Source of the DNA: an uncultured Bacteroidota bacterium
GTDB lineage: Bacteria; Bacteroidota; Bacteroidia; 2-12-FULL-35-15
Length of the DNA: 64,000 nt
Direction of reading: 5' to 3'
Assembly (NCBI GenBank): GCA_903926385.1
Contig: CAIYIS010000009.1
Location: 1-64,000 of the forward strand
The position numbers were made by a program, and so were the translations under genes. How positions within the stretch are numbered: the first letter of the stretch is position 1; each line of letters begins with the position of its first letter. The notes beneath the pieces were generated by a model, which was not told the DNA's origin, made no database searches, and worked only from the letters and a program-made list of their open reading frames with translations. Positions 3,322 to 38,204 of this stretch are shown here, in pieces.

Positions 3322-3609
3322 ATGAGAAAAAGTAAAGTAGTACGTCTTATTATTTATGAAGTGGTCAAACTTGTGCTCTGTTTCCTTGCAGGCTATGTGT
3401 TTTATTCGCTTATGCCCCTTACTTTGTATATTATTGCATTTCCAATAGACTTGTTCAGTTGGTTAATTTTCAAGAAAAAGAAATGGAGATTTAAAAAATG
3501 GCTTCAAATTTCCATTCTTATATTCATACTGCTGTTTATTGCTGATTACGGATGGTTCAGAGCCGGACACGAAGACCCTTTTTCGTTTTTGCTAGACTGG
3601 ATTAATTAA
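3322..3609 (+). CDS. Small membrane protein of unknown function, 95 aa
   Basis: I do not recognise a family. The protein has three likely membrane segments (about residues 9-29, 32-50 and 62-79) separated by a very basic KKKKWRFKKW loop at 51-60, which by the positive-inside rule should face the cytoplasm. The C-terminus is short and acidic/aromatic. The ATG lies just downstream of a good TAnnTTTG box, which supports a real gene. It converges with the glycosyltransferase gene on the other strand, with 30 bases between the stops. No functional partner is apparent. Confidence 0.7.
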   Translation: MRKSKVVRLIIYEVVKLVLCFLAGYVFYSLMPLTLYIIAFPIDLFSWLIFKKKKWRFKKWLQISILIFILLFIADYGWFRAGHEDPFSFLLDWIN

Positions 3610-3639
3610 CCTCTGACCTTTTTTAAGTACCGAAGCTTA

Positions 3640-4719
3640 TTAGAACAACTGCGTTAGCTTTTTAACATTCGCATTATTCGAAAAGTTTTCGGACAAAATC
3701 TGTTCTCTGCGGCTCACTTCGGTGCGGTCTATGGGCAATTCGAACAGACGAGGAATTTCTGCAAGCATATCTTCTGCGCTATCTTTAATACAACACAAAT
3801 TCTCCAATCCGGTATTGGCTACCATAGGGGTGTTTACCAGGCAATGTCTGCCGTTAAACAAAGCTGCAAGTAATTTTAGTTTAATACCGGTAGCCTGAAA
3901 AGTGGGCAGAATATTAATCTGAGCATCTTTAATCAGGTCGTCTATTTCCTGAGTGTTGATATTAGCTTTAAGCTGTATGTGTTTATGTTTGTTTACTGCT
4001 TCAGCCAGTTCCACTGAAGGTTTACGACCTGCAATAACGAGGGGAAGTTTTATTTTTGAGAACACTTCGTTTACCAGAAACAAAGCCGCTTCGTTGTTTT
4101 CGCCCACTTCCAAATTTCCGTGATACAAACAGAAATTACCTCTGCCTTCTTTAATAGTTACTTTTTCGTTGGGATGAAAAGCAGTGATGTGATGCACGTT
4201 TTTATATCGACCTGCTAATTCTTTGGTATCGGCCGGAGAAATGGCCGCAACATGAGTTGCCTTATTCAATATCTTTTCGAAAAGTTTTAATTTTTTTGCT
4301 TCCATTCCGAAATAAATTTTTCGGAATAATGATTTTTCTACCTTCTCCAGATTAACATAATAGTCGTGCTCTATGTTATGCATGCGCACTATTTTAGTTC
4401 GGTCTTTCAATCGAACTTCATCCAAATGAAAACAGCAATGTAATCCCTCAAAAAGTATCGGGTGTTTGTCGCGCATAACCACATCCATCAGCTTTTCTGA
4501 CGAACGGGTAACCACCACAAACGGCAATTTGTTGAGCAAATACTGTTTGCTCATTTTGCGTTTATAATAATATACTTTTTCGCAAATGCTTTCCAAACTT
4601 AGGGCTTCTGCTCTGCCGTATTCAAAGCAATGCAAATGAATTTTTACTCCCTGAGCATGCAGCGCCTTGAGTTTATAATAAATGTCAATCACCCCACCGT
4701 AATTGGCAGGATAAGGCAC
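3640..4719 (-). CDS. Glycosyltransferase, GT-B fold, GT4/group-1 like (start codon uncertain)
   Basis: This enzyme likely transfers a sugar from a nucleotide donor to a glycan or lipid acceptor on the cytoplasmic side. The N-terminus PYPANYGGVIDI is the acceptor-side loop typical of this Bacteroidota group-1 glycosyltransferase type. The C-terminal half contains the second Rossmann domain (CLYHGNLEVGENNEAA, then VIAGRKPS) and the donor-binding region (TFQATGIKLKLLAALFNGRHCLV), where GIKLK takes the place of the usual E-x7-E. Only GTG 4717-4719 is a standard start, but the conserved leader KHLHIISFD is encoded just upstream in frame with no ATG/GTG/TTG before the stop at about 4780. The true start may be ATT 4756-4758, two bases after the TAA of the preceding glycosyltransferase gene. 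The two genes are translationally close and probably co-transcribed. Confidence 0.85.
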   Translation of the reverse strand: MPYPANYGGVIDIYYKLKALHAQGVKIHLHCFEYGRAEALSLESICEKVYYYKRKMSKQYLLNKLPFVVVTRSSEKLMDVVMRDKHPILFEGLHCCFHLDEVRLKDRTKIVRMHNIEHDYYVNLEKVEKSLFRKIYFGMEAKKLKLFEKILNKATHVAAISPADTKELAGRYKNVHHITAFHPNEKVTIKEGRGNFCLYHGNLEVGENNEAALFLVNEVFSKIKLPLVIAGRKPSVELAEAVNKHKHIQLKANINTQEIDDLIKDAQINILPTFQATGIKLKLLAALFNGRHCLVNTPMVANTGLENLCCIKDSAEDMLAEIPRLFELPIDRTEVSRREQILSENFSNNANVKKLTQLF

Positions 4720-4759
4720 ATCAAATGAAATTATATGTAGGTGTTTTGCTTCGATAATT

Positions 4760-5923
4760 TTACAAAAACTGCGAGTAAACTGCCTTTAATTGCAATTCTT
4801 CTGTCTCCCAGTTTAATTTTTCGGCTGCAATTGTAGTGTTTTTTTTCCACACGGTGAGTTTTGCTTCATCATTGAGGATAGAATTTATTTTATCCGCAAT
4901 GTGTTGCGGCTTGTGGTTATCAATTATATCGCCTATTTTATAAGCTGAAATAATTTTTGCTATTTCCACCAGATTAGAAGACAAAACAGGCACACCGGCA
5001 TGTAGGTAATCAAACAATTTGTTGGGCAAACTGAAGTGATAGTTAATATTGGTGTCTTTATCTAATGTAAGACCTAAATCAGCAAGGCGGGTATATTGCA
5101 CCAGTTTCTCAAACGGCACTTTGCCAATAAAAATAACCTTTTCCTGAAGTTTTAAATCCACCACCATTTGTTTCAACACATCCAGCACATCACCACTTCC
5201 AATAATAACCAGTACGGCATTGGTAACATATTGCATGGCCTGCACCGCTTCTTCAGCTCCCCGATCAATATTGATGCCCGCACCCTGAAGTACAATCACT
5301 TTTTTCGCCTCCGGCAATCCTATTTCTGCTCTGGTTTTTGTTTCAATGGTTTTGCTGTTGGCTAATGGGGGCATGTTTCTAACCACTTTCACTTCCACAT
5401 TGTACTCTTTGCTGTAAATTTCGGCTATCGAATCATTCACCGTAAATACATGTTTCAGTTTTGGGAAAATCCATTTTTCCAGTCGTTTCCAGATGTTACG
5501 TTTTGTAGGATTTTGCTGCAGTTCGGGCACTTCGCAAAATAATTCGTGACTATCGTATACCAAATGAGATGATTTAAATTTAGCAACCAAATAATTTGGC
5601 AACAATGTATCGAGGTCGTTTGCCACCATTACATCGGCCTTATGAAAAAGAAGGTACCAGAATAAGCGTTTCTGAAACTCGAGATAAAACAGAGGGCCTT
5701 TTTCGAACAACAGAAACATCCGTTTGGTTTTATATTCCCGGGGCAAAAGAGCAATGCTTTTTCGCTGTCTGCGCCCTACAAGGGTAACATCATAACCCAT
5801 GCGGGTAAGCGTGGTGCAAACCTTATGCACCCGCTGGTCGGTGCTCAAATCATTTATTACAGATACAATGACGCGTTTCAATCGAAAGTTTTTTTGCGAA
5901 GATATAAATTTTAAACGCTGCAA
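4760..5923 (-). CDS. Glycosyltransferase, group 1 (GT4-like), 387 aa
   Basis: A GT-B glycosyltransferase. The N-terminal core KRVIVSVINDLSTDQRVHKV is typical of a Bacteroidota family of glycosyltransferases; VYDSHELF near residue 120 and VFTVNDSIAEIY near 160 are further family landmarks. The donor domain has VLQGAGINIDRGAEEAV, then PNKLFDYLHAGVPVLSS (about 305-321), the usual nucleotide-sugar binding loop. The ATG at 5923 adds about 14 residues before KRVIVSV; a TTG at 5879-5881 would give a start at LKRVIVSV and looks equally good by family habit. The downstream glycosyltransferase (3640-4719) begins at its stop codon, so both likely act in one glycan pathway. The acceptor cannot be read from sequence. 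Confidence 0.9.
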   Translation of the reverse strand: MQRLKFISSQKNFRLKRVIVSVINDLSTDQRVHKVCTTLTRMGYDVTLVGRRQRKSIALLPREYKTKRMFLLFEKGPLFYLEFQKRLFWYLLFHKADVMVANDLDTLLPNYLVAKFKSSHLVYDSHELFCEVPELQQNPTKRNIWKRLEKWIFPKLKHVFTVNDSIAEIYSKEYNVEVKVVRNMPPLANSKTIETKTRAEIGLPEAKKVIVLQGAGINIDRGAEEAVQAMQYVTNAVLVIIGSGDVLDVLKQMVVDLKLQEKVIFIGKVPFEKLVQYTRLADLGLTLDKDTNINYHFSLPNKLFDYLHAGVPVLSSNLVEIAKIISAYKIGDIIDNHKPQHIADKINSILNDEAKLTVWKKNTTIAAEKLNWETEELQLKAVYSQFL

Positions 5924-8207: not shown

Positions 8208-8864
8208 TTATTGAATTACCAGACCAAATGGCTCAGAAAAAACTTCCGATTCCACTGCCCCTCCATTTCCTACTCGGAAATAATACTTCTTTACACTACT
8301 CAATCCCGATTTCATAAAATCGGCTTTACTGGTAATGCCTATCGATACCCAACTGTTATCGTCAGCAGGGGTCAATGTCATTTGCCAGTGATAAATTCCG
8401 GAAGGATTAATAGCTGCCAGTAAGGCTACAGTGCCTTGCACAGCAGTATTCATAGCTCCGTACGATTGAGGACTACGACCGGGAAAAGATTTGAGGCTAC
8501 AGGAAGCAGCAGCAGCAATATTCTCTGCAAATAAGGGGTTGGCACGAGCAACGCCCTGTACATACTCCCTTACTCTTTCCATCAACTCCATCAATTCTCT
8601 TCTCCTGTCTTTCACTTTTTTTCGGTTTTCCCTACTCGGAGTCAATGTTGCAGTTGTTATGGCATTAGCCAAAGCAACTCTTGCAGCATCCACATCAGTG
8701 AGCGGAGGTGTGGGTGTGCCAAAATAGGCACTTGCCGCAATTGATTCCGAAATTAACTTAACCCTTGCAATTAAATCGGGCAATGCCAGCCTAGCTAGCA
8801 TTAGCACCACTACAATCATTTCTATCATGATTTTTTTGATTTTGTTTGTGTTTTGCCCGTTCAA
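8208..8864 (-). CDS. Conserved-type protein of unknown function with helical N-terminus and Fn3-like C-terminus, 218 aa
   Basis: I do not assign a function. Residues 1-30 are followed by an Ala-rich helical region (about 45-130; ISESIAASAYFGTP, then DAARVALANAITTAT and a basic NRKKVKDRRRELMELMERV helix). The last 80 residues look like a beta-sandwich: IYHWQMTLTPADDNSWVSIG and VKKYYFRVGNGGAVESE resemble fibronectin-III strands. Similar proteins (LARLALPDLI start, ALANAITTA, YVQ) occur widely in Bacteroidota without assigned role. The start could be ATG 8864 or the internal Met of MIEMIVVV. There is no convincing signal peptide. It reads away from the periodic repeat array that begins 169 bases upstream, so that array may be its control region. 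A strong terminator follows. Confidence 0.75.
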   Translation of the reverse strand: MNGQNTNKIKKIMIEMIVVVLMLARLALPDLIARVKLISESIAASAYFGTPTPPLTDVDAARVALANAITTATLTPSRENRKKVKDRRRELMELMERVREYVQGVARANPLFAENIAAAASCSLKSFPGRSPQSYGAMNTAVQGTVALLAAINPSGIYHWQMTLTPADDNSWVSIGITSKADFMKSGLSSVKKYYFRVGNGGAVESEVFSEPFGLVIQ

Positions 8865-8923
8865 GTCGCCATTAGCTACTTGTCAACCTATCCGGACAAA
8901 ACGGTTTATACTAAATTAATAAT

Positions 8924-8935
8924 AGACTAAAGTCT
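8924..8935. repeat. Short palindrome AGACT-AA-AGTCT
   Basis: A 5-bp perfect inverted repeat about 60 bases upstream of the 8208-8864 gene. Its arms share the AGTCT core of the motif repeated at 9033-9297. Candidate operator; no direct evidence. Confidence 0.35.
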
Positions 8936-9032
8936 GGTAGCGGTTTTAATCATTGTACTAAATTTTTGAATTTCTATTCTTTATCAACTCTTTATGTTTT
9001 TCCTCAAGTGGTCGGACTACTATATTTTTTTT

Positions 9033-9297
9033 TATACTAGTCTTTTTGTCAAATATACTTGTCTAAAAAAAATTATACCAGTTTTTTTAGAATTATACTT
9101 GTCTAAACTTTTTTATACAAGTCTTCGGCACTTTTTGACTTGTCTAAAAATTATTTTACTTGTCTTTTTCTCCTTTTGAGAAGTATAAATTACTTTAGAC
9201 AACGCTAAAAATATTTATACCAGTCATTTTGTCATTTATACCAGTCTTTTTAACTTAAAGACTGATATTTTTTAAAAGATACAAGTCTTTTTGTCTT
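9033..9297 (+). repeat. Phased array of an 11-bp motif TATACnWGTCT every 20-21 bp
   Basis: Starting at 9033 the motif recurs at 9054, 9074, 9094, 9114, 9135, 9155, 9176, 9196, 9216, 9237, 9257 and 9278. The steps are 21, 20, 20, 20, 21, 20, 21, 20, 20, 21, 20 and 21 bases, mean 20.4. Copies at 9033, 9054, 9094, 9114 and 9237 match the consensus fully. Those at 9074, 9155, 9216 and 9278 differ at one position and 9135 at two. 9176 and 9196 are degenerate, and 9257 is weak and instead carries the motif core inverted (AGACTG at 9259). The 9-10 bases between motifs are mostly T or A tracts. The step is not a multiple of three, so this is not a coding repeat. It is two helical turns, so all motifs face one side of the helix. 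Function unknown; a protein-binding array or curved DNA is plausible. Confidence 0.85.
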
Positions 9298-9376
9298 ACA
9301 GACTGCTCCAAAACTATTTTTACTGTTCAATAGATTTGAAGCGTTTTTTTTGACCATTTTAATGTTTTAGTCCTAA

Positions 9377-9635: not shown

Positions 9636-10219
9636 ATTTTATTTTACGGAGACATACACGGTTTTTGAACAAAAATATGGGAAATTGTAAGCTTAACAAA
9701 TGCATAAATATTTCAAGTATCCCTTTTCTTAATAATCACTGAAAGCCTTTTAAAATATGATGTTTTTAGTAAAGAGATAAAGTAATTAATTAGATAAAAT
9801 TAAGGATATTTAGTTAGAAAATGCATTCCATCCGTTTCGGCAGAAAAGAAAATGGAGCACTAAGTTAAAAAAATTGCTAAAAATGGAAGAAATTGAATAA
9901 AAATTGAACTTTTTTTAATCTTTTTTCAAAAAAAATAATTATTACATAAGTTACAGAATTGTAGATTTATATATTAATATTCTTGATTAAAATAGTATAG
10001 ATTTTGAACTTTTTTAAAAAATATTTAAAAAAAATGCAACCCTCATGCAACCTTTTACAAATTTAAAACATCTATAGACGTAAGGGGCATAAAAAGGTTG
10101 CCTCTGATTTTAAAAAATATTTGTTTTTTTATCAGTTCAGTTAAAATTATTCATAATTTAGCACAAGATTTAAAAGTTTAAAACCAATTAATAAAAGATT
10201 AACTAAAAATTAAAGTATC
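9636..10219. other. Gene-free, very A/T-rich upstream region of the first giant surface gene
   Basis: No open frame of note. Long A and T tracts run from about 9880 to 10030. It contains the inverted repeat at 10047-10101. No convincing TAnnTTTG box at a fitting distance from 10220 was found; TAATTTAG at 10154-10161 is the closest. Confidence 0.5.
10036..10101. promoter_or_regulatory. Inverted repeat GCAACCTTTT / AAAAGGTTGC upstream of the giant surface gene
   Basis: GCAACCTTTT at 10047-10056 is the exact reverse complement of AAAAGGTTGC at 10092-10101, and a further GCAACC lies at 10036-10041. The spacing is 35 bases and the second arm ends 118 bases before the ATG at 10220. It could be a regulator site or a 5'-leader stem. 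The arms stand out in otherwise A/T-only sequence. Confidence 0.5.
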
Positions 10220-13200
10220 ATGTTGAAAAAATTTACTCAATTCTTCTCTTGTTTAACACTGATAGGAGCATTACCATCGGTTGCATTAGCCTCTCACGTA
10301 TCTGGAGGAGAAGTTACCTACACCAATGTGGGTGTAAATCAGTTTAAGGTTGTATTGGTCAACTATTGGGATTGTGCTTCTTTCGATCCGGGTACATCTC
10401 AGCAAATGGCAACTACCAACAATGGTGGTTTCACAGATTTAAACTTTACAGTGAATCTGGACTCAGCAGTTGAGGTTTCTCAGGTATGCCCAACAGCCAC
10501 TACAACATGTAATGGAGGGACCATCCCAGGAAACAAGAAAAATGTATATTCTGCCATTGTAACCCTTCCGGGGCAATGTTCGTTGTGGACGTTTTATCAT
10601 ACTTCTTGTTGTCGTAATATTTCTGTGAATGCCCCTAACTACGATAGTTATACTTTTTATGCAACCTTAAACAACTTGGTGGCACCAACCAATAACTCCC
10701 CTTATTTTACTTCTACTCCTTTGCCTTACCTTTGTGTTGGTCAAACCGTATGTTATAGTCCGGGAGTTGTAGAAATGGATGGGAATACTTTAAGTTTTTC
10801 TTTTGTTGACGCAATGAATACCAACTCAACTACTCCCATAACTTATGCTGCAGGTTATACAGGAGCAGTGCCAATGCCGGGTATTTCTATTCTTCCGGGT
10901 AATGGATTGATTCAGTTTAGTCCAACCACAATTGGTAACTTTGTGGTTGCTTTTATGGTTACTGAACGCGATGTGAATGGTATCGTTATCGGGACAATAG
11001 TTAGGGATATTCAAATGGTAGTGGTTAACTGTACAAACCAAGTGGTGCCTTGTAATGCTGGAGCAGTGACCAATCTAACAGGATTTGGTGCAATTATTAT
11101 TCCACCTAACGGAGTTCAGGTTTGCGAAAACGTTCCTTTCGGATTTCAGTTTAGTTTTACAGACCCCGATCCTGCTGATATTTTAACAGCTATTTCAAAT
11201 ATTCAGGCTATTATGCCTGGTTCTACATTTACTTTCACAGGAACCAATCCTATCACCGTTTTTGTAACATGGACAGCCCCTCCGGGAACCGCCAATACAT
11301 TCACAACATTTGCAGTAACGGTAACAGACAATGCGTGTCCGGTCACGGGTCAGCAAACTGTTAATTATATTATGGACATTCTGCCGGCTACTCATGCCGG
11401 ACCTGATGTTACCATTTGCGGTAATCAAGCTGATACATTGCATGGATTAATTCCGGGAACAGGTTGTCAATGGACAGTTTTGAGTGGACCTCCAATGTAC
11501 ACTAGCGGGCCAATGCAGAACTTTTCTTGCGATACGTGTTTGAATCCTATTGCTACACCAACAGCCACCACTACTTATGTGCTTACATCTAATGGTTCTC
11601 CGGCATGTGTGTTAACCGATACAGTAACCATCTTTGTGGTGCCAGATTTTACGTATACTGTAACTCAAAGTTCAGGAAATACTTGTTTACTTGACCCTGT
11701 TCAATTAAATGTTACAAACATTACACCGGGAACATACACTTATCTTTGGTCTCCGGCAACGCATTTAAGCAATGCCAATATTCCAAACCCTACAGCTACT
11801 TTTAGTAGCCCTGGTACATATAATTATATGCTTACCGTAACTAGTTCTACAGGATGTGTGCATTACAGTAACATCTCTATTACAGTTGCGCCTGCATTTG
11901 CTCCTAATATAACAGTTAGTAACGATACTAGCTTCTGTTCGGGTACTGCTACACTCAACGCCTATTTCACAGGTGGAGGTATTCCTCCTATTTGTCAGTT
12001 AAGCCCAACCGGAGGTTGTGGTGGTACAGCCTTAACAGGATTAGTAGGTACTGTAAATAATCCTACTTCTAACACTGACTATGCTTATCCGGCTCCTTTT
12101 GGTAACTGGTACACATCAGCTGTTCAGCAGTATTTATATACAGCTGCTGAGTTAAATGCAGCAGGTGTTATTGGTGGAAAAATAGATCAGATAGATTGGA
12201 ATATTACATCCATGAATCCTACAGCATATACTACCTATCCGGAGTTTACAATCAAGATGGGATGTACTAATTTAATCACATTCAATTCTACCACTCCTGT
12301 GTTCTCAACCGGGTTATACACCGTTTTCCCTGCACAAACAGTAACTGCTGTGATGGGATGGAATTCTTTTGTATTTGCTAATCCGTATGAGTGGGATGGT
12401 ATTTCTAACATCATTATAGAGGTTTGTTTTACAGAAGGACCTCCTTATTCTAACTATACTTATAATTTACAATCTACTCAAACCGCTACCGGATATACAT
12501 CTAGTCAATGGTCACTTAGTGATGCAGCGGACCAATGTGCAGGTGTTACAGGTTGGTTGACTACTGCTAATATTCACCCTGATATGCAGGTGCATTATTG
12601 TTCTATTGTTCCTAATCCAAATGATTTCTCTTTCCAATGGACAGCTTTCCCTGCAGGAGGAAATATCGCGAATGATACCATGCAGTTTACTACTGGTTCG
12701 CCAACAGTAATAACCGACTATCAGGTGGTGGTTACCAACGTTAACGGAGGTTGTACAGATATTGACACCGTACATGTAGGTGTTACAAATATTGCCACGA
12801 TGCACATGGACCCAGCTGGGCCGTATTGCACTGCAAGTTCTATGGATACTTTAACTGTTTCTGTTCCTTTGGGTACAGGTGCGTTTTCAGGACCTGGTAT
12901 TACTGATACTTATTTAGGTGTGTTTGATCCGGTGACAGCAGGTGTTGGAACTCATGTCATTCATTATACCACAAACGGTATTTGCGGTACTGCTGATACC
13001 ACCATTACTATACTTGTAGCAAATACACTTAATGCCACCATAACTCCGGTTGCACCATTATGTACTTCATCCAATCCTGTTACACTTACTGCTGCTACTC
13101 CCGGAGGAAGCTGGACAGGTTACGGAATAACCGATACCCTTAACGGAACATTCGACCCTACCTTACCTGGACTTGCAGGCAATGTTATTATTGTAACATA

Positions 13201-14275
13201 TACTATCTATTTCCCTTGTTTCTCTCAAGATACAGTCTTGGTTAGTGTAACTCAACAACAGCACGCGACAATCGACTCTGTACCGGGTCCATTCTGTATT
13301 GATGCGGCACCTTATCAATGTACATCAGCAGTTGGCCCTGGCGGAACATGGAGCGGCCCAGGCATGTCATCATCGGGTGTATTCTCTCCGGCTATAGCTG
13401 GTGCTGGTACTCACACCATTTTCCATTACATGACTCAATTCTGCGGAGACACTGCATCTACAACTATTACAGTTATTGCATTACCGGTTATTTCAATTAT
13501 TGCTGATGTTTCATCAGGTTGTGAGCCTACTGTAGTTCACTTCACTAGTTCAACTGATCAGCCTGGAGGAACTTATGCATGGACTTTAGGAAACGGAACT
13601 TCTTCTACTCAAGCCAATCCTTCCTGCAATTATACAAGCGCAATGGGATCGCCTTTTGATGTAACGCTTACTTACACCAATTCCAACGGATGTGTTTCTT
13701 CAATTACAAATTCAGGTATGATTACTGTATTTTCTCAGCCTCATGCTATGTTTACTTCTACTCCGCAGCCAACGGATGTGTCGAATCCGGAAATTCATTT
13801 CCATGATCATTCAACTGGAACAATTGATACTTGGGCATGGACATTTGGAAGTGGAGGAGCTGGTTCGTCTCAGCAAAACCCACACTATACTTATCCTGAT
13901 TCAGGTTCGTATACTGTTCAGTTAATTGTAACCAATAGTGCAGGACCTTGTTCAGATACGATTACTCATACTATTATTATTGATCCAATTTTGACTTGTT
14001 ATTTCCCAAGTTCATTTACTCCGGACGATGATGGAGTAAACGATGAATGGAGAATGGTGGGAAGTAACATACAGCCTGACGGATTCCAGATGTTAATCTT
14101 TAATCGCTGGGGAGAGTCGTTATTTACTTCATCGGATTATCTGGTTGGTTGGAACGGAAGACGTGGAAATGTGGGAACTCCGGTTGATCAGGGAGTATAC
14201 GTTTACAAAATTCATTTTGTAGATTTTAAAGGTGTAACTCACGATTACATTGGTCATATTACATTAAAAAGATAA
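10220..14275 (+). CDS. Giant cell-surface protein with PKD-like repeats and CHU_C (T9SS, gliding-type) C-terminal domain, 1351 aa
   Basis: Residues 1-24 are a signal peptide ending SVALA-SHVSGGE; an S-H-x-S-G-G-E start after cleavage is common in large Bacteroidota surface proteins. The body is Thr/Ser/Cys-rich, built of Ig/PKD-like beta domains; two PKD-like units are clearest at about 1090-1255 (TYAWTLGNG, DTWAWTFGSG, YPDSGSYTVQL). The last 95 residues (from about 1257, ILTCYFPSSFTPDDDGVNDE to IGHITLKR) are a CHU_C/gliding motility-associated C-terminal domain, the type B signal that sends proteins through T9SS. Such proteins normally need a PorP/SprF-type partner; one is encoded at 51246-52196 but not next to this gene. 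The C-terminal 790 residues align with the next gene (14410-18450) while the N-terminal 550 do not. Probable adhesin or matrix protein; ligand unknown. Confidence 0.9.
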   Translation: MLKKFTQFFSCLTLIGALPSVALASHVSGGEVTYTNVGVNQFKVVLVNYWDCASFDPGTSQQMATTNNGGFTDLNFTVNLDSAVEVSQVCPTATTTCNGGTIPGNKKNVYSAIVTLPGQCSLWTFYHTSCCRNISVNAPNYDSYTFYATLNNLVAPTNNSPYFTSTPLPYLCVGQTVCYSPGVVEMDGNTLSFSFVDAMNTNSTTPITYAAGYTGAVPMPGISILPGNGLIQFSPTTIGNFVVAFMVTERDVNGIVIGTIVRDIQMVVVNCTNQVVPCNAGAVTNLTGFGAIIIPPNGVQVCENVPFGFQFSFTDPDPADILTAISNIQAIMPGSTFTFTGTNPITVFVTWTAPPGTANTFTTFAVTVTDNACPVTGQQTVNYIMDILPATHAGPDVTICGNQADTLHGLIPGTGCQWTVLSGPPMYTSGPMQNFSCDTCLNPIATPTATTTYVLTSNGSPACVLTDTVTIFVVPDFTYTVTQSSGNTCLLDPVQLNVTNITPGTYTYLWSPATHLSNANIPNPTATFSSPGTYNYMLTVTSSTGCVHYSNISITVAPAFAPNITVSNDTSFCSGTATLNAYFTGGGIPPICQLSPTGGCGGTALTGLVGTVNNPTSNTDYAYPAPFGNWYTSAVQQYLYTAAELNAAGVIGGKIDQIDWNITSMNPTAYTTYPEFTIKMGCTNLITFNSTTPVFSTGLYTVFPAQTVTAVMGWNSFVFANPYEWDGISNIIIEVCFTEGPPYSNYTYNLQSTQTATGYTSSQWSLSDAADQCAGVTGWLTTANIHPDMQVHYCSIVPNPNDFSFQWTAFPAGGNIANDTMQFTTGSPTVITDYQVVVTNVNGGCTDIDTVHVGVTNIATMHMDPAGPYCTASSMDTLTVSVPLGTGAFSGPGITDTYLGVFDPVTAGVGTHVIHYTTNGICGTADTTITILVANTLNATITPVAPLCTSSNPVTLTAATPGGSWTGYGITDTLNGTFDPTLPGLAGNVIIVTYTIYFPCFSQDTVLVSVTQQQHATIDSVPGPFCIDAAPYQCTSAVGPGGTWSGPGMSSSGVFSPAIAGAGTHTIFHYMTQFCGDTASTTITVIALPVISIIADVSSGCEPTVVHFTSSTDQPGGTYAWTLGNGTSSTQANPSCNYTSAMGSPFDVTLTYTNSNGCVSSITNSGMITVFSQPHAMFTSTPQPTDVSNPEIHFHDHSTGTIDTWAWTFGSGGAGSSQQNPHYTYPDSGSYTVQLIVTNSAGPCSDTITHTIIIDPILTCYFPSSFTPDDDGVNDEWRMVGSNIQPDGFQMLIFNRWGESLFTSSDYLVGWNGRRGNVGTPVDQGVYVYKIHFVDFKGVTHDYIGHITLKR
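12866..12931 (+). other. Segment with the same protein as 17038-17103 but different codons
   Basis: The 22 codons PLGTGAFSGPG-ITDTYLGVFDP encode the same residues as 17038-17103 in the neighbouring gene, yet only 6 of 22 codons are identical. It marks the most conserved part of the paralogue pair. Confidence 0.9.
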
Positions 14276-37925: not shown

Positions 37926-38009
37926 CCCCTCAATCCATTTTGTCCACCCCTCAATCCATTTTTCCCACCCCTCAATCGTCTTCGTCCACCCCTAAATCCA
38001 TTTTCCCCA
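37926..38009 (+). repeat. Four tandem 21-bp repeats, CCCCTCAATCCATTTT(T/G)-type
   Basis: Units start at 37926, 37947, 37968 and 37989. Units 1, 2 and 4 are nearly the same; unit 3 has CGTCTTCG in place of CCATTTTT. The period is 21 exactly, unlike the 20-21 alternation at 9033. The sequence then passes into AATCCCAAATCCC words. Confidence 0.85.
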
Positions 38010-38204
38010 CCACAATCGCGAATCCCAAATCCCAAATCCAAACCACGCAAAACCCAATTTGTGCTTTAATTTTGTCCCAATGCCATTTATTTGATATCTC
38101 TTCTTCCCAAATGAGTAGTATAGAGGCTTGGCTTCACACAGAAGCTTACCTCAATCATTGCCGAAGATAAGTTAAATGTCCCGTTTTTCAAACGGTTCAG
38201 TAAC

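Follow-up and report, generated by a model that had tools for sequence, protein, structure and literature searches.

The helically phased array described here, which lies in a 64,000-nucleotide stretch of DNA from an uncultured Bacteroidota bacterium (the window), is a multi-copy feature, and the intergenic DNA of these bacteria contains dozens of such repeat blocks. Such arrays are linked to genes of a small orphan protein family, hold a fixed period while their units change, have sister arrays that stand without a gene, and do not code for protein. This suggests a previously undescribed partnership between a protein and a repeat. The best explanation, which we hold tentatively and at somewhat less than an even chance, is that a dispersed, MITE-like repeat element is paired with an orphan protein that would recognize its own array family on one face of the helix. 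We place it no higher because binding is the most economical inference from the sequences for a protein without a recognized fold.

All 13 registers of the window array were found where the first-pass annotation, made from the letters of the window, had placed them. Scored against TATACNWGTCT on the plus strand, they match at 11, 11, 10, 11, 11, 9, 10, 7, 8, 10, 11, 4, and 10 of 11 positions, which reproduces the earlier count of 10 of 13 registers at 9 or more; the register at 9257 scores 4/11 on the plus strand versus 7/11 on the minus strand. Recomputing the mean step as (9278-9033)/12 gave 20.42 bp, in agreement with the 20.4 bp first reported. Shuffled sequence had been named as the control on which the array could fail. 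An in-phase chain search (13 registers, steps of 20 or 21 bp) found 11 matches of at least 8/11 in the real array and at most five in any shuffle, both for order-2 Markov shuffles of the local 1.3 kb (n = 500) and for shuffles of the whole window (n = 20). When the 64-kb window was scanned for 20–21 bp periodicity, this array alone rose above the threshold. The spacers of the array repeat too, with T-tracts alternating with A-tracts, so that a 41-bp double unit is formed. We rejected a CRISPR array, defined by near-identical repeats and unrelated spacers, because the units are degenerate and the spacers recur at 41 bp; the first-pass annotation had likewise judged the array not to be CRISPR-like.

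The registers stood as given, and the block that contains them proved slightly longer, with a leader that starts at 9010 and similarity to another copy, on contig C25 of the same genome, that extends to about 9325 (Table 1). The evidence for the tail is a blastn alignment of window positions 9006-9325 to positions 9897-10216 of the C25 locus (L009) at 71%. As annotated, the block is flanked by divergent genes, the orphan partner gene on the minus strand and a T9SS-sorted PKD gene on the plus strand. Rfam and tRNA scans of the window found nothing. Elsewhere in the window, at 37926-38011, there is a short and weak 21-bp tandem repeat, four copies of CCCCTCAATCCATTTTGCCCA, with no family gene recognized near it.

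Table 1. Coordinates of the window array and its surroundings, and of two arrays beside other orphan families
Location	Feature	Coordinates	Strand	Remarks
Window	Partner gene, 206-aa orphan protein ("Ala-rich")	8208..8828	-	Best start ATG; ORF start possible at 8864 (TTG)
Window	Intergenic stretch, partner gene to array leader	8829..9009	.	Arrangement matched at L055 and L056 (relative)
Window	Conserved leader, GGTCGGACTACTATATTTTTTTT	9010..9032	+	In all three arrays of the window genome, nowhere else there
Window	Array, 13 units TATACNWGTCT, 20/21-bp steps	9033..9288	+	41-bp double unit, T-tract and A-tract spacers alternating
Window	Array tail, TTTTTACTG...	9289..9325	+	Loosely conserved relative to C25 copy; terminal inversion weak in window copy
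Window	T9SS-sorted PKD gene	10220..14275	+	
L173 (G000 C41)	21.00-bp array, unit about CAAACACTTGTTTGGAAAACT	4121-4661		About 100 bp before gene
L173 (G000 C41)	203-aa gene	4775-5386		
L174 (G000 C33)	21.00-bp array	3521-4001		Before gene
L174 (G000 C33)	304-aa gene	4139-5053		

The partner protein consists of a strand and four helices, followed by a fibronectin-III (FN3) domain. Assignment of the C-terminal half to FN3 draws on Pfam (fn3 in 12 of 17 members), a PDB sequence profile, and a PDB fold search, and the four helices of the N-terminal half were seen in an AlphaFold model (pLDDT 85). In the PDB fold search of this model the FN3 half was matched alone, the N-terminal half had no match, and no DNA-binding fold was recognized; searches of Pfam and NCBIfam returned fn3 alone, with no transposase match and no recognized enzymatic domain. 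The FN3 family has 15 members in the window genome; in G026, which belongs to the same genus, it has 26 matches, of which some are fragments. A single-sequence search of 36 genomes of the genus detected homologs in 11, and of 396 genomes from across the phylum 12 have homologs, some of which match the FN3 half only. A narrower family alignment, used for a scan of genome contigs, identified five loci. We dropped an origin from phage or plasmid because no homologs were found in IMG/VR, INPHARED, or PLSDB at the sensitivity used. Between the two G026 paralogs whose loci carry different units, differences are concentrated in the N-terminal half; selection on that half for new specificity is unsupported, given that silent changes follow the same gradient. 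At four loci (L115, L116, L118, and L119), the family gene is followed directly, in tandem, by a second, divergent FN3-family paralog.

The linkage of gene and array is most clearly seen across loci. Lag matching found 20–21 bp periodicity, or its double or triple, at 30 of 30 fetched family loci from the window genome and G026, and a free period search over 12–33 bp at those loci returned 21.0 at 27 and 20.4–20.5 at three; two had weak scores. Among 27 distinct loci of other genomes, some of them from different families and classes of the phylum, 24 gave periods of 20.0–21.0, the exceptions being L065 (at a contig edge), L076, and L084; L093 scores merely at the level of the controls. On 28 apaG control loci the same free period search favored no period, and no score exceeded 0.11.

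The position of arrays relative to genes bears on one alternative, in which the protein is a transcription factor, the upstream array serves its autoregulation, and the trans arrays (those elsewhere in the genome) control a regulon. Phased multi-site operators are a known design, and the array is upstream of the gene in the window and in 17 of 29 scored loci. However, 12 of the 29 arrays are downstream of their gene, trans arrays are in mixed orientation to neighboring genes with at least three of them between convergent genes, and the fold search gave no DNA-binding fold. Arrays were thus not found in the arrangement of an operator, at the promoters of a regulator and its targets, and we consider this explanation improbable.

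In the window genome (85 contigs, 4.27 Mb) the window units recur at C25:55422 and C35:64774, and all three copies open with the leader GGWCKGANYACTATATTTTTTTT. Both trans copies of the window array (L009 9906-10216 and L010 9951-10280) follow a phoU-pit pair of phosphate transporter genes, about 250 bp downstream of it, and the two are in opposite orientations. The analysis did not support the idea, raised in the first-pass annotation, of one special and fixed locus, given that the array is multi-copy and that the apaG site, across 30 loci of the genus, is accessory. We call the site accessory because the FN3 gene lies upstream of apaG in the window genome alone, and arrays are present there in two genomes with unrelated units, the window genome and G014, the other 28 loci being at background with neither gene nor array. 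The G014 array, a 21-bp array at L194 1001-1420, lies upstream of apaG in the intergenic position that the gene and array have in the window.

Periods of 20.0, 20.4–20.5, 20.65–20.85, and 21.0 bp were seen, all of them compatible with two helical turns. When the unit consensus sequences of 21-bp arrays were compared, likeness was above chance for one pair, whose proteins are 80% identical, and at chance where protein identity was 71% or less. The period is constrained, and the unit sequence is not. Because presentation of the units on one face requires a held period, the constancy of 20.0–21.0 bp across dozens of arrays unrelated in sequence fits helical phasing, and it bears out the earlier emphasis on phasing as the key property. 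Period and AT content were not significantly correlated (rho -0.19, p 0.16). Universally palindromic units were rejected on the grounds of weak enrichment, the units being weakly palindromic overall (combined p 0.006, with 20% of arrays below 0.1).

Free sequence on a fixed period could also be accounted for by curved or stiff DNA that acts as a nucleoid or supercoil element, for which any 21-bp repeat would suffice. In a calculation with wedge parameters, the predicted curvature of the arrays exceeds that of aperiodic shuffles (median contour/end 1.46 vs. 1.14) but not that of column-permuted arrays (1.48). The intrinsic curvature suggested in the first-pass annotation is therefore predicted, at a strength no greater than any 21-bp repeat gives. 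Curvature leaves both the sharing of units among distant copies and the linked gene families unexplained, and we rate it as less probable still than the operator. Much further down we place the notion that 21-bp arrays are coding sequence, perhaps decayed, for seven-residue repeats. It is true that 21 is a multiple of 3 and that most 21-bp arrays are open in some frame; however, periods of 20.0, 20.4–20.5, and 20.7 occur, the open frames are not biased toward either strand, and variability is level across codon positions (0.127, 0.125, and 0.118). On these three grounds we rejected coding as extremely improbable, and the same three sustain the earlier statement that the array cannot be coding.

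A change of unit under a kept period is seen in G026, in which five arrays lie behind a cognate leader, GGACTGACGACTATAATTTTTTTT. On C49 and C32, the leader and the 20.4-bp period are kept and the unit is TGGTTMCTT instead of TATACTTGTCT. Homologs of the partner gene occupy the matching divergent position beside the arrays on C38 and C49, and because the gene and leader regions of these two loci are 92% identical over 850 bp (blastn) and their units are different, we conclude that the units changed together and kept their spacing. Units like TATACTTGTCT and units like TGGTTMCTT each have their own distant arrays in G026. By eye, the difference is one of AC..GT to GG..CC in both half-sites, as would be expected if a dimer had switched specificity. 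The window unit is also found at the G026 C38 locus despite a protein identity of 72%, so unit turnover rates vary.

When 15 cis units were compared with the genome by BLAST, 10 of the 14 that could be judged had further arrays elsewhere, with up to eight chromosomal copies per unit. None of the 20 trans regions that were fetched contained a family gene. Remnants of a gene end or gene start persist in some trans copies (L179 and G026 C7), so gene-less copies can arise by deletion. In two well-sampled unit families the array ends are defined and form imperfect inverted repeats (TCGGGGAGGACGCTAATCTTGG vs. TCGGGGAGGATGTGAATCTTGG; AACAATATCGTTTAGTCG vs. AACAATATCGATTATTCG). Terminal inversion reached significance in L010, L138, L187, L132, and L181 but not in the window copy, L009, or L055. 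The inverted ends of L132 flank the array alone, and the gene lies outside.

Features of this kind are also those of selfish MITEs that contain a minisatellite and are mobilized by some unrelated transposase, in which case the orphan genes would be non-binding passengers or preferred landing neighbors. The layout of leader, tail, and inverted ends is like that of BrickBuilt and PgRS of Porphyromonas gingivalis (PMC4596501), there are intergenic array copies without a gene, the site is empty in most relatives, and gene-end remnants in some trans copies are as in deletion derivatives. What selfish elements leave unexplained is the presence of arrays near almost every family gene, and a two-turn period that is held while the sequence changes. 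We regard this explanation as unlikely, although it is the strongest of the rivals.

Further repeats accompany these arrays. Sister arrays of the ACGAAT-rich L102 unit were set aside and not counted as trans copies, since they resemble a distinct class of repeats near other 21-bp arrays. Repeats of ACGAAATACGAATAGTACGAAT, about 41 bp long and apparently a separate dispersed repeat class, lie beside 21-bp arrays at L173 (3937-4052), L174 (3957-4029), and L102 (about 800-1060). A PDDEXK_3 (GxxExxY-type) nuclease-like ORF directly adjoins an ACGAAT-type array on G000 C59 (L176 4116-4538). Arrays of the unit family AATCCAAGAAAGGCGAACGGT are found at or near many contig ends (G000 C18, C28, C42, C61, and C77), so they probably break the assembly, with the result that copy number is underestimated.

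Two orphan families unrelated to the FN3 family were found next to trans arrays, and neither had a match in a Pfam search. The 203-aa family (MKHKYYFP...WLLNY) has arrays of 20.8–21.2 bp at nine of nine loci with adequate context, a count that leaves aside four fragments or edge loci without an array, and the 304-aa family has 21.0-bp arrays at five of six loci (examples in Table 1). Because these families are linked too, the phased array is the common element, with which several unrelated small proteins are associated, and the exact nature of the protein may matter less than assumed.

Under the preferred reading, a MITE-like element paired with an orphan protein, the element would be an intergenic block in which a leader and a tail enclose a minisatellite whose units are two helical turns apart, and the gene for the small protein would adjoin one of the copies. 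The protein, probably as an oligomer, would recognize, both in cis and in trans, the units that belong to its own family of arrays. Binding on one face of the DNA would yield a regular nucleoprotein filament or cluster, which may organize or mark the elements or help to maintain and spread them, and paralogs within one genome would form separate protein-array pairs. Counting against this reading are the fold match of the FN3 half alone, the weak palindromy of the units, the non-significant terminal inversion of the window copy, the gradient of silent changes between the two G026 paralogs, and the linkage of two other orphan families to such arrays. A more far-reaching reading, unlikely but with a real chance of being true, is that these pairs make up a new genome-encoded addressing system, in which many orphan helical and beta-sandwich proteins would each coat a private array in cis and in trans, orthogonally to one another, with recognition sequences that turn over quickly at a fixed helical spacing. 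If linkage means binding, one bacterial genome would contain a dozen or more protein-DNA pairs of common architecture and different sequence. This would be a natural experiment in the change of recognition under kept geometry, and new DNA-binding scaffolds could be drawn from it. Should the arrays be no more than mobile elements, a two-turn unit length still recurs beside three unrelated orphan families, a rule that the papers we found do not describe. The arrays thus offer a handle on many uncharacterized Bacteroidota proteins and on a class of minisatellite known mainly from P. gingivalis.

Helically phased protein sites beside the gene for the binding protein are familiar from iteron and centromere arrays, such as plasmid Rep iterons and parC/parS-type sites. 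The arrays studied here differ in that they are chromosomal and have several copies per unit; no Rep-, ParA-, or ParB-like gene was noticed in the loci read, and no homolog was found on the plasmids and phages searched. A second comparison is with RAYT/REP systems (REPtrons), in which RAYT, a tyrosine transposase, is associated with short extragenic palindromes (PMC2817692; PMC3116915). Common to both are a gene beside its cognate repeats, dispersed gene-less copies, and several families per genome. Here, however, the repeats form phased arrays and the protein is helical with an FN3 domain, the only domain recognized in it by Pfam, NCBIfam, and the fold search, none of which detected a tyrosine transposase (Y1) domain.

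The nearest described relatives in form are BrickBuilt and MITE464/PgRS of P. gingivalis, MITE-like intergenic elements with a leader, a tandem minisatellite, a tail, and in some cases short inverted ends; BrickBuilt has 19 copies and 23-nt repeats, PgRS has 41-nt repeats, and the ends match IS5-type elements (PMC4596501). Like these, the arrays described here occur in Bacteroidota as dispersed intergenic tandem repeats (the window array at three sites, and gene-less arrays for 10 of the 14 judgeable units), with a leader in three copies, a weaker tail, and clear ends in two other unit families, and the 41-nt repeat of PgRS equals the double step of the window array. Unlike the 23-nt repeat of BrickBuilt, which is not two turns and belongs to one unit family, the arrays here have periods of 20.0–21.0 bp and many units per genome. 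No linked protein family has been described for BrickBuilt, whereas most units here have an orphan partner gene. A text search of PMC4596501 for "helical," "fibronectin," or curvature returned nothing, and that paper describes neither a helical rule nor a partner protein. Literature searches for a known system of 21-bp arrays and FN3 proteins found the P. gingivalis MITEs alone. For now, we would class the system as intermediate between minisatellite MITEs and pairs of a gene and its repeat.
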